From Candidatus Eisenbacteria bacterium (GTDB lineage: Bacteria; Orphanbacterota; Orphanbacteria; Orphanbacterales; Orphanbacteraceae): a stretch of 32,664 nt of DNA. The notes under the pieces were generated by a model. That model had not been told where the DNA came from, did not search any database, and saw nothing but the letters and a program-made list of their open reading frames with translations. Below, piece by piece: positions 5,996 to 25,899 of the stretch. Location: contig VGIW01000030.1 of the NCBI GenBank assembly GCA_016867715.1, positions 1-32,664 on the forward strand, written 5' to 3'. The position numbers were made by a program, and so were the translations under genes. The stretch's first letter is position 1. Each line of letters starts with the position of its first letter.

Positions 5996-6106
5996 GCCCC
6001 TTTGTCGGGCGGGGGGACCAGGTATCCGAGCCGAGAATCGCCGGTTGCCTGCCCTGGAGGCCGACGCAGCCGCCATTCGCCCCCCGGGCCATCTCACCGG
6101 GGGCGC

Positions 6107-6135
6107 TCGACGGCCGATAAGACACGTGCTATCCT
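6107..6135 (+). promoter_or_regulatory. Possible promoter of the secreted-protein gene
   Basis: TCGACG (6107-6112), a 17-nt spacer and TATCCT (6130-6135) match sigma70 elements at 4 of 6 positions in the -35, with a reasonable -10. The ATG follows 50 nt later. Confidence 0.4.
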
Positions 6136-6184
6136 GACGTTAGCCGCATCGACGATTCGATCCTCATCCGAAGGGAGGCCTCTC

Positions 6185-6934
6185 ATGCGAGCCCACGGGA
6201 CAGCCCTCGCCCTCGTCGCTCTTCTGGTCTCCACGGCGACGGCCGACATCCCCTTCCAGAGACAGGCCGTGCAGGAGGCGATCGTCCCTCCCGGGCGAGT
6301 CGAGGGAGGAACGGGAACCTGCTCCGTCGTCTACTACAACATCTGCTCCGGATGGTTCTGGCTCTGGTCCCCGTTTACCGATCGGGACGGACGGTGGATG
6401 GACCAAATCGGCGTCGTCTTCGACCTTCCGGAAGACTGCGGGAAAGTACCGGGATCGGAGTGCACCCATCTCGGCTTCTGGTGGTACTGGCGGTACACCC
6501 GTCCCGGGTACGGGTACACGCTCTCCTACCACCTGTGGAACGCGGACGACGGAAACTGCAAGGTGGGACCCGCGATCGGCGCGCTCTATCGACAGGACCC
6601 GGTCGAACGATGGAACTATTACCCTGGGCTCGGATCGACGACTTCCGACTACGTGACGATCACCGCCACGATGGACAAGGGGGCACTGCCCTATTGGGTG
6701 ACCGACAACAACCACAAGAACGCCGCCGCTCCGATCCGGTGTGCGGGATGGCCGGGTCCGATCGAGAAGCATTCGTTCATCTTCGGCGAAGGCTACCAAG
6801 GCACGATCTGCCCGACTTACTACGTCGGCGACCAACTCGGTCCAGTGCAGTTCCTCATGAGAGCATCCTTCTCCTGTCCGGAAACGTCGATCGAACCCGC
6901 TTCCTGGGGGACGATCAAGAGCTTGTTCCGATAG
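6185..6934 (+). CDS. Secreted protein of unknown function with SWGTIKSLFR tail
   Basis: The 249-aa product begins with a Sec signal peptide (MRAHGTALALVALLVSTATA, likely cut after ATA). The mature part is rich in Trp, Tyr and Cys (CSVVYYNICSGWFWLW and several further cysteines), typical of a disulfide-bonded extracellular beta-protein, but I recognise no named domain. It ends SWGTIKSLFR; tails of this W-G-x-I-K-x-L-[FY]-R kind recur, as I recall, at the ends of many exported proteins in Eisenbacteria-like genomes and may be a sorting or processing signal. GGGAGG lies 6 nt before the ATG. The gene is monocistronic and converges on the SDR gene with a 6-bp gap. Confidence 0.85.
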   Translation: MRAHGTALALVALLVSTATADIPFQRQAVQEAIVPPGRVEGGTGTCSVVYYNICSGWFWLWSPFTDRDGRWMDQIGVVFDLPEDCGKVPGSECTHLGFWWYWRYTRPGYGYTLSYHLWNADDGNCKVGPAIGALYRQDPVERWNYYPGLGSTTSDYVTITATMDKGALPYWVTDNNHKNAAAPIRCAGWPGPIEKHSFIFGEGYQGTICPTYYVGDQLGPVQFLMRASFSCPETSIEPASWGTIKSLFR

Positions 6935-21399: not shown

Positions 21400-21428
21400 T
21401 TGACATTCCGTGGGCCGTGTGGTAGTCT
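21400..21428 (+). promoter_or_regulatory. Promoter of the protease-cohesin operon
   Basis: A perfect -35 TTGACA (21400-21405), a 17-nt spacer and TAGTCT (21423-21428). Transcription from about 21435 would cover both the dockerin protease and the cohesin-like gene, up to the terminator at 25590-25619. Confidence 0.7.
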
Positions 21429-21581: not shown

Positions 21582-24500
21582 ATGCGCCTTCGGCGAATGT
21601 TGCCGCTCGTCTCCCTCGCCGCGATCCTCGCATGGGCGTCCGTGTCGGTCGCCTTCGTCGAGGTTTCGGAGTGGAACCGGCTTCTGGTTCCGCGGCCGGG
21701 CTGGGAGGATGAGGGCCTCTGGATCCAAGCGACCGAACGGGCGGACGCGGCGAAGACTTCTCCGGTCGCCGACCTCGCCGCTCAGTACGGCGGGAACTGG
21801 CGGTACAACCGGAACTCCGTCACGGGAAGCCTGCATCATGTGTACGGATCCGGCATCGACTTCACATCCGCCCTCTCGAACGAAGCCGACGTCGAGCGGG
21901 CGGCGCGCACGTTCATCGGCGCGAACTCTTCTCTCTTCGGCGCGACGAACGCTGATCTCCGCGCGGCTCAGATGCAGAGCGCCCCGGGCAAGTGGGCCGC
22001 CCACTTCGACCAGGTCGTGGACGGCCTCCGCGTCGTCGGCGGGCGCGTTCACGCGGTCTTCACTGATTCGGGTCGTCTCTTCGCTTTCGGTTCCGATGTC
22101 TATCCGAACGTGAAGGAGAAGCTCGGAAGCACGCGGCCGGTCCTCTCCGAGGCGGAAGCGATCGCGCTCGCCGGAGCGGAAGTCGGCTTCGTGAGCGGGA
22201 GCGATCAGATCACCCATCGCGAGCTCGTGATCCTGCCGATCCGCGAAGCGCGCGACGACGAGATGGTTCTCGACTATCGTCTCGCATGGCGTCTCGACCT
22301 CTTTGCGCAGAACCCCTACGGACATTGGTCGACCTACGTCGACGCGCGGAGCGGCGAGATCCTCTGGCGGGAGAGCCTGATCTACCCGCTCGACTTCACC
22401 GGGCATTCCCGGTCGGACGTGGAGTGGGACGGCTACTGCGACGGCTACACGTACGATTTCCCCGTCGACGGGATGGTGATCAACATCTCCGGCGTCGGGA
22501 CGACGTATTGCGGCGAGAACGGGAACTTCGCGCTTTCCTACGGCGGAACCGACTCGAGAACGATCACGGCGGAGTTCCGCGGTCTCTACATCAACGTGAA
22601 CCGGTACACGGGGACCGACGCCTCGCATACCGGGACGATCACCCCGGGAACGCCGTACACGATCGATTGGTCGAACACGAACTCGCTCGCCAGCGAGCGT
22701 GACTGCTTCTCGTACATCAACAAGCAGCACCGGTGGCTGAAGAACCTCGACCCGACCTTCACCCCGCTGGACTACGTGATGCCCTGCGTGGTGGAGCGAA
22801 CCGACGGGTATTGCCCCGGGAACGCATGGTACGACTACAACGGGATCAACTTCTGCGTGCAGAGCTCCAGCTACGGCAACACGGGGCGGATGGGCGACGT
22901 GGCCTATCACGAGTACGGCCACGGGATCACCCACCGCCTCTACGAGCCGACGAGCCCAAACAGCAGCATCCACGAGGGGAACTCCGATATCGTCGCGAAC
23001 CTCTTGACGAGAGAGAGCATCATCGGGCTCGGGTTCTACCTCAACAACTGCACGTCCGGAATCCGGAACTCTCTCAATACTCTCCGCTACCCGGATGACT
23101 ACGGAGGCTCGGGCCACTTCAACGGGCAGATCATCGCCGGGTTCATCTGGGATTCGTGGGTCCAGCTTCAGGCCGCGTATCCGCAGGCCTACGCGGACAG
23201 CGTGATCATGTACGACTGGTGGTACGGCCGGAAGATGGGGCTTCCGCTCTCGTTCCCCGATCAGGTCTACTGGACCTTCGTTGCGGACGACAACGACGGA
23301 AACCTCGACAACGGAACTCCGCATCACGCGATGCTCTGCGTCGGCGCGGAGAACCACGGGTTCACGTGCCCGGAGATCCTGAGCCCGGTCTCGATCACGC
23401 ACACGCCGGTCGAGTCGCAGCCGAGCACGACGCAGCCGACGGCGATCACGGCGACGATCGTCTCGTCGGCCGCTCCGATCAACGCGGGCGCGTGCCGGGT
23501 GTACTACAAGCTGAACGGCGGATCGTTCTCCAACGTGGGGATGTCGAACGTCGGCGGCGACAGCTACACGGGCTACATCCCCGCGCAGAGCGCCGGGACG
23601 CTCGTGCAGTACTACATCTACGGCCAGGACACCGACGGGAACTCCGCGACTCATCCGTCGAACGCCCCCGCGACCCTTCACGGGTTCTATGTGGGCGAGT
23701 TCCAGACGGTCTTCGAGGATGAGTTCGAGAGCGCCGGCGGTTGGACGGTCGGCATTCCGGGAGACGCCGCCACGACCGGCGTCTGGGAGAGGGGCGATCC
23801 GCAGGGAACGTACTACAACAGCCAGCCGGTCCAGCCGGAAGACGACCATACGCCGGCCCCGGGCGTGAACTGCTACGCCACGCAGCTCGCCGCGGGATCG
23901 AGCGCCGGATCCTACGACGTGGACGGCGGAAGAACGACGCTGGTCTCGCCGGTCATCGATCTTTCGGACGCGGCGATGGCGCTCGTCACCTACTGGCGTT
24001 GGTACACGAACAACCTCGGCAACGCGCCGAACGAGGACTACTGGAGAGTCCAGGTATCGAGCGACGGCGTGAACTGGGTTTATCTCGAGAACACGACCCA
24101 GTCGAACAACAGCTGGCAGCGTTACCAGTTCAACATCGGCAACTACGTGAGCCTCACATCGACCGTGCAGTTCCGCTTCATGGCGGAGGACGCGGGAAGC
24201 GGCTCTCTCGTCGAGGCGGCGGTCGACGACTTCAAGATCGATGCGATCTTGACGCCGGGAATCGATCCGACGCTTTCGACCGTGGCGGTGAACGACGACG
24301 TGATGCTTCGTCCGGACGGTCTTGGGGATTCGGTGCTCGCGATCACGGTGACGGTGCGGGACGGGAGCGGGAACCCGGTCGCGGGGATACCGGCGGGGGA
24401 CGTGGCGGTGACGCTCGACGGGGCATCGTTGAATGGTCGAGCGATGAAGTTCTGCGCGAGCGGGACGGACGAGTTGATTCTGTATTCGACAGAGCCGACG

Positions 24501-24797
24501 AACGCTTCGGGCGAGGTGACGTTCGAGGTGGAGCATGCGGGCGGTTGCGGGGAGGTGACGGTTTCGGCGGTGGTGCAGGCGATCGCTCTTACGAACCCGG
24601 CGTCGGGGACGGTACGGAGCCCGGACCTCAATGGGGACGGGCAGACGAACTTCCAGGACACGATGTTGTACGCGCAGTTGTTGAACGCGGGGACGGGCTA
24701 CTGCGGGAACCTGAACGGGAGCCCGGACGGAGCGGTGAACTTCCAGGACACGATCAAGTACGCGCAGGCTTTGGCGGCCGGAGCGGCGTGTCCGTAA
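21582..24797 (+). CDS. Secreted M4/M36-like metalloprotease with C-terminal dockerin
   Basis: This 1071-aa exported protein has, in order: a signal peptide (residues 1-24), an FTP/PepSY-like propeptide region to about 260, a gluzincin catalytic domain with HEYGH (zinc ligands and Glu) and a downstream HEGNSDIVAN supplying the third ligand, a beta-sandwich near 600-690, a MAM/jelly-roll-like domain (FESAGGWTVG ... to about 890), an Ig-like region, and two dockerin-type repeats at the end (DLNGDGQTNFQD and NLNGSPDGAVNFQD). It probably matures outside the cell and docks onto a cohesin. GGAGAGGAG precedes the ATG at 21582. Codon use changes sharply after about nt 24290. The cohesin-like gene follows after 19 bp in the same operon. 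Confidence 0.9.
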   Translation: MRLRRMLPLVSLAAILAWASVSVAFVEVSEWNRLLVPRPGWEDEGLWIQATERADAAKTSPVADLAAQYGGNWRYNRNSVTGSLHHVYGSGIDFTSALSNEADVERAARTFIGANSSLFGATNADLRAAQMQSAPGKWAAHFDQVVDGLRVVGGRVHAVFTDSGRLFAFGSDVYPNVKEKLGSTRPVLSEAEAIALAGAEVGFVSGSDQITHRELVILPIREARDDEMVLDYRLAWRLDLFAQNPYGHWSTYVDARSGEILWRESLIYPLDFTGHSRSDVEWDGYCDGYTYDFPVDGMVINISGVGTTYCGENGNFALSYGGTDSRTITAEFRGLYINVNRYTGTDASHTGTITPGTPYTIDWSNTNSLASERDCFSYINKQHRWLKNLDPTFTPLDYVMPCVVERTDGYCPGNAWYDYNGINFCVQSSSYGNTGRMGDVAYHEYGHGITHRLYEPTSPNSSIHEGNSDIVANLLTRESIIGLGFYLNNCTSGIRNSLNTLRYPDDYGGSGHFNGQIIAGFIWDSWVQLQAAYPQAYADSVIMYDWWYGRKMGLPLSFPDQVYWTFVADDNDGNLDNGTPHHAMLCVGAENHGFTCPEILSPVSITHTPVESQPSTTQPTAITATIVSSAAPINAGACRVYYKLNGGSFSNVGMSNVGGDSYTGYIPAQSAGTLVQYYIYGQDTDGNSATHPSNAPATLHGFYVGEFQTVFEDEFESAGGWTVGIPGDAATTGVWERGDPQGTYYNSQPVQPEDDHTPAPGVNCYATQLAAGSSAGSYDVDGGRTTLVSPVIDLSDAAMALVTYWRWYTNNLGNAPNEDYWRVQVSSDGVNWVYLENTTQSNNSWQRYQFNIGNYVSLTSTVQFRFMAEDAGSGSLVEAAVDDFKIDAILTPGIDPTLSTVAVNDDVMLRPDGLGDSVLAITVTVRDGSGNPVAGIPAGDVAVTLDGASLNGRAMKFCASGTDELILYSTEPTNASGEVTFEVEHAGGCGEVTVSAVVQAIALTNPASGTVRSPDLNGDGQTNFQDTMLYAQLLNAGTGYCGNLNGSPDGAVNFQDTIKYAQALAAGAACP

Positions 24798-24816
24798 AGA
24801 AGGAGGCGAAGAGAGC

Positions 24817-25563
24817 ATGCGAGTGATGGGGATTCTCGGCGCGCTTCTTCTCGCGAGCGCCGGAGCGGTGTATGGACTGAGCCCGTACGTGGAGGTGGGG
24901 GAGTTGGGAGCGGGGAAGGACGGGGCGTATCTGGAGGTTCGCGTGGGGGCGCGGGGCTGGGAGGGTGTTCAGGCGGTGCACGTGGACGTGGAGTACGATC
25001 GGACAGGATTGGAGCCGGCGGGTTTCACGGCGGGGGATTTGTTCGTGGAGCCGTTGGTGCTCGGGCCGTTCGATCGTTCGGAGCGCGGGGTATCGGACGT
25101 GCAGTTGGCGAGCCTTCGGGGCCCGGTGACGGTGGGGGATGCGGCGGTGGGGGTGTTTCGTTTTCGGGTGTTGGACGAGGGGCGTGCGTCGGTGCGTGTG
25201 GTGTCGTTTGAGACGGCGGGGGAGGATTGGTCGGTGGAGACGCACGTGAGTTATGCGAACGCGTTGGGAACGGGGGTTCTTCCTCGTGCGACGCGTTTGT
25301 TGGGGAATGTTCCGAACCCGTTCAATCCGACGACGGAGGTTCGGTTTGAGTTGGCGTCGCGTGTGGGGGTGAGCGTGGAGGTGTACGACGTGAGCGGTCG
25401 TGTGGTGCGGCGGTTGGTGGAGGGGGTGCGGGACGCGGGATCTCACGCGGTGATGTGGGATGGGCGGAGCGAGAGGGGCGAGGCGGTGTCGTCGGGGGTG
25501 TACTTCGTTCGTTTCCGTGCGGGGTCGCATGCGGAGACGCAGCGGGTGACGCTGATTCGGTAG
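24817..25563 (+). CDS. Cohesin-like protein with FlgD-Ig/T9SS-type C-terminal domain
   Basis: The 248-aa protein has a signal peptide (1-20), then a cohesin-like beta-sandwich at about 22-150: VEVRVGARGWEGVQAVHVDVEYDRTGL-type strands (only partly quoted: VQAVHVDVEYDRTGLEPAGF), the TAGDLF turn and AAVGVFRFRVL strand. The last ~85 residues are a FlgD-Ig or T9SS-like sorting domain: NVPNPFNPTTEVRFEL, VEVYDVSGRVVRRL, HAVMWDGRSERG and SGVYFVRF. It sits 19 bp after the dockerin protease with GGAGG upstream of the ATG, so it is the natural partner that could hold the protease at the cell surface. Most of the gene is G-rich on the coding strand with unusual TTG and GGG codons, while the signal peptide part looks native. 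A terminator follows. Confidence 0.85.
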   Translation: MRVMGILGALLLASAGAVYGLSPYVEVGELGAGKDGAYLEVRVGARGWEGVQAVHVDVEYDRTGLEPAGFTAGDLFVEPLVLGPFDRSERGVSDVQLASLRGPVTVGDAAVGVFRFRVLDEGRASVRVVSFETAGEDWSVETHVSYANALGTGVLPRATRLLGNVPNPFNPTTEVRFELASRVGVSVEVYDVSGRVVRRLVEGVRDAGSHAVMWDGRSERGEAVSSGVYFVRFRAGSHAETQRVTLIR

Positions 25564-25589
25564 TTCCTTTCATATGTGAATGGTTCGTG

Positions 25590-25619
25590 GGGCGGGCTCT
25601 TCTCGGGCCCGCCCTTTCT
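25590..25619 (+). terminator. Terminator of the protease-cohesin operon
   Basis: A 9-bp stem (GGGCGGGCT with GGCCCGCCC, one G-T pair) and 7-nt loop, followed by TTTCT, 26 nt after the cohesin-like stop codon. Confidence 0.8.
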
Positions 25620-25662
25620 GATTCTCGGACGGCGGGTCCCAGGCGCCCAGGTTTGTCTTTCT

Positions 25663-25709
25663 CCGGAGACGGGGGCGGGGCAGAGCGGCGAGTTGCCGCG
25701 CGCCGCGCG
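25663..25709. repeat. Dispersed repeat block 2, copy B
   Basis: Reverse-complement match to 16091-16134, with the 19-bp core AGCGGCGAGTTGCCGCGCG identical. The core itself contains a GCGGC/GCCGC hairpin. Confidence 0.75.
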
Positions 25710-25833
25710 CGGAATGTTTGAGCAAGCGAGCCTCACCCTCGGCTCCGGAGCTTCCCGTCTTCGCTGGATCGGATCCGCCTTTTCCTGCTGCGGTTACCCG
25801 CCGTGGTTGCGTCGTCCCATGCGGAGACGACCT

Positions 25834-25873
25834 GGGCGCGTTCGGAGGCGTCCCCAAGGGGGAGGTCGGCCCG
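25834..25873. repeat. Dispersed repeat block 1, copy B
   Basis: Matches 16031-16070 at 38 of 40 positions in the same orientation. It ends about 20 bp before the -10 element of the transaldolase promoter. Confidence 0.8.
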
Positions 25874-25890
25874 TTGAGCGGGCCCGCCCA

Positions 25891-25899
25891 TGCTAGAAT
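25891..25899 (+). promoter_or_regulatory. Extended -10 promoter of the transaldolase gene
   Basis: TGC followed by TAGAAT (25894-25899). The -35 region is poor. Repeat block 1 abuts this promoter and may influence it. Confidence 0.45.

Follow-up and report, generated by a model that had tools for sequence, protein, structure and literature searches.

Two adjacent genes in a 32,664-nucleotide stretch of DNA from Candidatus Eisenbacteria (the window) encode a secreted protease ending in a dockerin and a small secreted protein in which a cohesin is followed by a sorting domain of the type IX secretion system (T9SS). We consider it probable, at roughly two chances in three, that they belong to a plug-and-socket system for the surface display of proteases, in which a T9SS-tagged cohesin adaptor holds dockerin proteases. 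Both open reading frames were confirmed at the positions previously assigned to them (Table 1), with the adaptor gene starting 19 bp 3' of the protease gene, and each has a ribosome-binding site and a signal peptide by inspection.

Table 1. Features of the protease-adaptor locus, given as window positions or as residues of the gene 1 protein.
Feature	Position	Strand	Remarks
Gene 1, M36-like gluzincin protease with C-terminal dockerin	21582..24797	+	1071 aa
Gene 1 signal peptide	residues ~1-24
Gene 1 FTP/PepSY-type propeptide	residues ~134-276
Gene 1 catalytic domain	around HEYGH 443 / E465
Gene 1 Ig-like domain	residues 610-690
Gene 1 MAM/choice-anchor-J-like jelly roll	residues ~715-890
Big_1/invasin-like Ig domain	24255..24590	+	PF02369 in 9/14 modules
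GC-type dockerin, two calcium-loop/helix repeats	24609..24794	+	NF041540, PF00404, PDB profile
Gene 2, cohesin adaptor	24817..25563	+	248 aa, 25 kDa; signal peptide, one cohesin, T9SS type A sorting domain
Cohesin domain	24880..25260	+	PF00963, family profile against PDB, Foldseek
FlgD_ig / T9SS type A C-terminal sorting domain	25300..25560	+	NVPNPFNP ... SSGVYFVRF ... TLIR
Intrinsic terminator-like hairpin	25589..25615	+	3' of cohesin gene
Segment of dockerin module, cohesin gene and 3' flank	24257..25894	+	duplicated or homogenised in window genome

The initial annotation had read gene 1 as a zinc protease, and both of the motifs on which it relied were located within the frame: HEYGH spans residues 443-447, and Glu 465 belongs to the third-ligand motif, HEGNSD. 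The window copy reaches 18.0 bits against the M36 profile PF02128, under the cut-off of 23.3, with HExxH and the downstream Glu present, and its paralogue on contig C84 clears this cut-off with 25.7 bits. Orthologues in four genera keep HE[YF]GHG, nearly all of them also HEGNSD, and BLAST comparisons separate two M36 paralogue groups, with the C84 copy in group a and the window copy in group b.

The two dockerin-type repeats described before were both recovered at the C-terminus of gene 1. Loop 1, DLNGDGQTNFQD, is canonical and loop 2 contains a 2-residue insertion, the Asp being invariant; a Cys pair lies at the C-terminal end, where ..CP forms the final residues of the protein. Scores of 18-23 bits against the GC-type profile NF041540 and of 17.7 bits against PF00404 are under the curated cut-offs of 29 and 22.9, respectively, which, together with a similarly low score of the window cohesin, counts against the display system. 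The top PDB profile match of the dockerin is a cellulosomal dockerin, 2y3n_B, and two dockerin helices are present in the AlphaFold model of a homologous fusion protein. Upstream of the dockerin there is always the Big_1-like Ig domain, in a position like that of an X-module and with two near-invariant Cys. Further PF00404 matches found in the genome search on contigs C63, C46 and C87 were set aside as a module other than the Ig-dockerin: their dockerin is internal and of type I, and after it come a beta-sandwich, which the cohesin profile does not recognise, and a C-terminal sorting domain (CTD). Large proteins that combine an internal type I dockerin, a beta-rich stretch of about 120 aa and a CTD in one chain are encoded in the window genome at L040:4851-8825, L041:7141-12060 and L042:2122-9432.

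As for gene 2, the predicted structure agrees with the cohesin fold proposed earlier for its N-terminal sandwich. The AlphaFold model (mean pLDDT 79) was compared with solved folds by Foldseek, and cohesins dominated the matches, with a best E-value of 5e-7, a probability of 1.0, TM scores (target) of 0.5-0.63 and single-domain rmsd values of 3-4 Å; the solved cohesins matched come from cellulosomes, Clostridium perfringens and Archaeoglobus, the best of them being type II cohesins. The window domain itself scores 17.7-19.9 bits against PF00963, under the cut-off of 24.1, and eight of the nine members of the cohesin family match this profile (best E-value 6.4e-9). It could be argued from the sub-threshold Pfam scores of the window copies, and from two genomes with dockerins and no cohesin (see below), that the beta-sandwich is a generic spacer which binds no dockerin and that the gene neighbourhood reflects hitch-hiking. 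We hold this to be improbable, since the relatives match PF00963 strongly, the family profile picks out nine PDB sequences up to E = 10, every one of them a cohesin, and all adaptors adjoin dockerin genes, with one of them fused. The remainder of gene 2 was correctly described as a sorting-type domain, scoring 34.5 bits against TIGR04183 (cut-off 23) and 45.2 bits against PF13860 (cut-off 27). With this Por_Secre_tail domain and its signal peptide, the protein fits T9SS type A cargo, and about 130 matches to the sorting domain were obtained genome-wide.

The machinery that handles such cargo is present. In the window genome, the T9SS pore SprA was found with 539 bits over neighbouring pieces (cut-off 200) and the sortase PorU with 555 bits (cut-off 420), so that the bacterium does bear a T9SS; both proteins are above cut-off in all seven genomes of the order.

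Conservation of the gene pair was followed in seven genomes of the phylum and order, the window genome included, and the resulting statistics are small because of this sample size. A cohesin protein was found in five of them. In G001, G002, G004 and G005, all seven stand-alone cohesin genes are directly downstream of a dockerin gene whose product has about 900-1465 aa, and over the five genomes each of the nine cohesin domains detected is either directly downstream of a dockerin module or fused to one, which argues that the adjacency is not due to chance. The pairs occupy two separate conserved loci, type a after GAPDH and type b near M16-like peptidase genes. An eighth copy in G005 is a single open reading frame comprising FG-GAP/ASPIC, Ig, dockerin, cohesin and CTD, without a protease domain, and provides a Rosetta-stone link from dockerin to cohesin. 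This fusion also bears on the idea that the cohesin protein acts in the periplasm as a chaperone or inhibitor, escorting the protease, and is not its final anchor. The direct adjacency of the adaptor and protease genes would suit such a role. Against it, the cohesin protein has a T9SS sorting domain of the kind matched about 130 times elsewhere in the genome, and in the fusion cohesin and CTD stand behind a dockerin in a chain that has no protease domain; we judge the idea very improbable.

The search for the gene pair in relatives, which had been suggested as a check, gave a divided answer: the pair recurs in four further genomes, but in G003 and G006 dockerin C25 proteases are present and a cohesin gene was not detected. 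The latter finding corresponds to one part of the refuting condition set beforehand, one gene occurring without the other, and speaks against the display system, as do short secreted Ig-dockerin proteins without a cohesin neighbour. Assembly gaps could explain the absence, and in G003 it is not decisive because the contig breaks off within the tandem C25 locus. The short Ig-dockerin proteins, of 230-340 aa and without an enzyme domain, occur several to a genome, and many of them lie close to recA-alaS or form tandems (L070:6812-7639, L071:9371-10204, L136, L138 and others). Outside the phylum, only weak cohesin-like matches were obtained, with no dockerin seen near any of them, and plasmids and viral contigs gave matches to the CTD only. 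In a mirror-tree comparison the dockerins group by genome and not by locus, whereas the cohesins outside G000 do not, so that co-variation cannot count as clean evidence of binding. Nor can an interface be read from the AlphaFold model of the natural fusion, which has a pTM of 0.46 and unspecific fold matches and was discarded as evidence.

The initial annotation had described a two-gene system, which proved too narrow. The window genome encodes at least five dockerin peptidases, and the same Ig-dockerin module is found on three unrelated families: M36 (in the window and on C84), C25 (on C84 and C42) and S8 (on C41, cut by the contig end). In addition, C84 terminates 12 nt into a second cohesin gene, and the first base of C42 is the one immediately preceding a cohesin stop codon, which is followed by 336 bp; at least one further cohesin gene has therefore dropped out of the assembly, being a repeat, and a join of C84, cohesin and C42 is likely on the sequence at the contig ends. 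Judging from these ends, the genome must hold at least two cohesin genes, although none beyond gene 2 was found when it was searched for further cohesins, and a PF00963 match at C87:11827-12000 was dropped for lying on the opposite strand of a predicted open reading frame. Dockerins on three peptidase families and an implied second cohesin gene point to a plug-and-socket set for proteases that is genome-wide. The description of the system as non-cellulosomal was upheld: the genomes examined yielded single-cohesin proteins only, with no multi-cohesin scaffoldin, and the annotated dockerin enzymes are peptidases, without a glycoside hydrolase among them. For the same reasons, a scaffold of the cellulosome kind, on which a polycohesin protein would gather many enzymes, is extremely improbable, even if the several dockerin proteins per genome would be in keeping with it.

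The long dockerin proteins identified (M36, C25 and S8 peptidases) show no CTD of their own, the fusion excepted, whereas other C25 proteins of the window genome, on C15, C28 and C64, have CTD matches in cis. The simplest reading is that the sorting domain is supplied in trans by the cohesin adaptor, which thereby displays the protease. The protease would cross the inner membrane by Sec, bearing at its C-terminus an Ig-dockerin plug in place of the T9SS sorting domain found on related enzymes. The 25-kDa cohesin protein from the adjacent gene would bind the dockerin and supply the missing type A sorting domain, SprA and PorU would export and attach the adaptor, and the attached adaptor would hold the protease at the cell surface; since C25 and S8 peptidases carry this dockerin too, one adaptor could serve several enzymes. 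We infer the binding and its calcium dependence from the families concerned, and likewise infer the surface location and the order of assembly and export. The earlier casting of the cohesin protein as the anchor holds in so far as it carries the T9SS tag; it is more specifically T9SS cargo, whose attachment to the surface would follow from the T9SS.

Two orders of events are conceivable. Cohesin-dockerin assembly is classically extracellular, and it is possible, if tentative, that docking takes place outside the cell, the protease being exported alone, for instance by a type II system, and then caught by the surface adaptor as in cellulosomes. This version of the display system would agree with the protease having its own signal peptide; against it, the protease itself lacks a recognised signal for export across the outer membrane. 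Alternatively, the dockerin may serve as a T9SS export signal in trans, with the adaptor binding folded proteases in the periplasm and the complex being pulled through SprA. We regard this as rather unlikely; if true, enzymes without a sorting domain would hitch-hike through the T9SS, and many cargos would share one tag.

Signals flanking the pair were also checked. The single terminator placed earlier at 25590-25619 was matched by a terminator-like hairpin, and its sequence recurs at the start of C42, after the inferred second cohesin copy. By contrast, the promoter claimed at 21400-21428 could not be upheld: the consensus scan returned no promoter-like site, with 0.4 expected by chance, and although TTGACA is perfect, the -10 box TAGTCT agrees at only three of six positions. 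From the dockerin module onwards, the locus has been duplicated or homogenised within the genome. The 5' part of this segment is 98% identical on C84, and its 3' flank on C42 (L068:1-336 against window 25560-25894, containing the terminator) is also 98% identical, with a further dockerin C25 gene downstream of it. Between M36a and M36b of the window genome, identity amounts to 96-98% in the dockerin modules and to 46% in the catalytic cores, and the ends of the cohesin copies are near-identical. Dockerin module and cohesin look as though they had been homogenised together, which speaks for the display system. The duplicated 336-bp flank resembles the end of a duplicated cassette. Over window positions 24255-25563, from the dockerin module to the cohesin stop, third codon positions turn from C3 0.51/G3 0.37 to G3 0.58-0.65/C3 0.14-0.27; these G-rich third positions are also seen in the C84 modules and are absent from the relatives and from C42.

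Cohesin-dockerin complexes for proteases have been proposed before, with large scaffoldins; what is new is a single-cohesin T9SS adaptor encoded beside its protease. In Ca. Stygibacter (Cloacimonadota), also of a Gram-negative phylum, a cellulosome-like complex with dockerin S8 and C25 peptidases was proposed, and the C-terminal domain of its cohesin protein was read as a T9SS-type attachment domain (PMC8542988). That system is built on a scaffoldin of 3,755 aa that bears tandem cohesins and CBMs, and it includes glycoside hydrolases (PMC8542988), whereas in Eisenbacteria a 25-kDa single-cohesin adaptor is encoded beside its protease, and only peptidases are involved. The 'planctosome' of freshwater Planctomycetes (Nemodlikiaceae) is likewise a proposed non-cellulosomal cohesin-dockerin complex for peptidases; it differs in having M12B and M14 peptidases, a dockerin and cohesin adaptor and a 2,210-aa lamin-tail anchor, and the parts consulted describe no T9SS sorting domain (PMC6461901). 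Clostridial single-cohesin anchoring scaffoldins share the joining of one cohesin to a surface-attachment domain, and clostridial type II cohesin/X-dockerin dyads share the Ig-like module before the dockerin (PMC11557425; PDB 2b59, 3kcp, 3l8q), but these systems use Gram-positive anchors (SLH, LPxTG, TM) and cellulases in the place of a T9SS tag and proteases (PMC11557425). With the T9SS-dependent M36 and C25 peptidases (NF038113; gingipains/PorU) the enzyme families and the machinery are held in common, except that the sorting domain, in cis there, is here on a separate protein reached through dockerin and cohesin. Our literature search found no paper in which dockerins or type IX secretion are linked to Eisenbacteria. 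The pair, which is conserved across genera, is a very small cohesin-dockerin display unit and connects a cohesin with type IX secretion. It raises the testable question of whether the T9SS can export a protein when the sorting signal is carried by its binding partner, and would offer a small Gram-negative plug-and-socket module for displaying enzymes on cells.

A different C-terminal tail, W[GS]x[VIL]KxLFR, is shared by small secreted Eisenbacteria proteins in several genomes (window 6002-6934, L070:2579-4101, L133:2791-4194, L141:5792-6340 and L064:15105-15677). Four of these have no NCBIfam match, and the tail is possibly an undescribed sorting signal.
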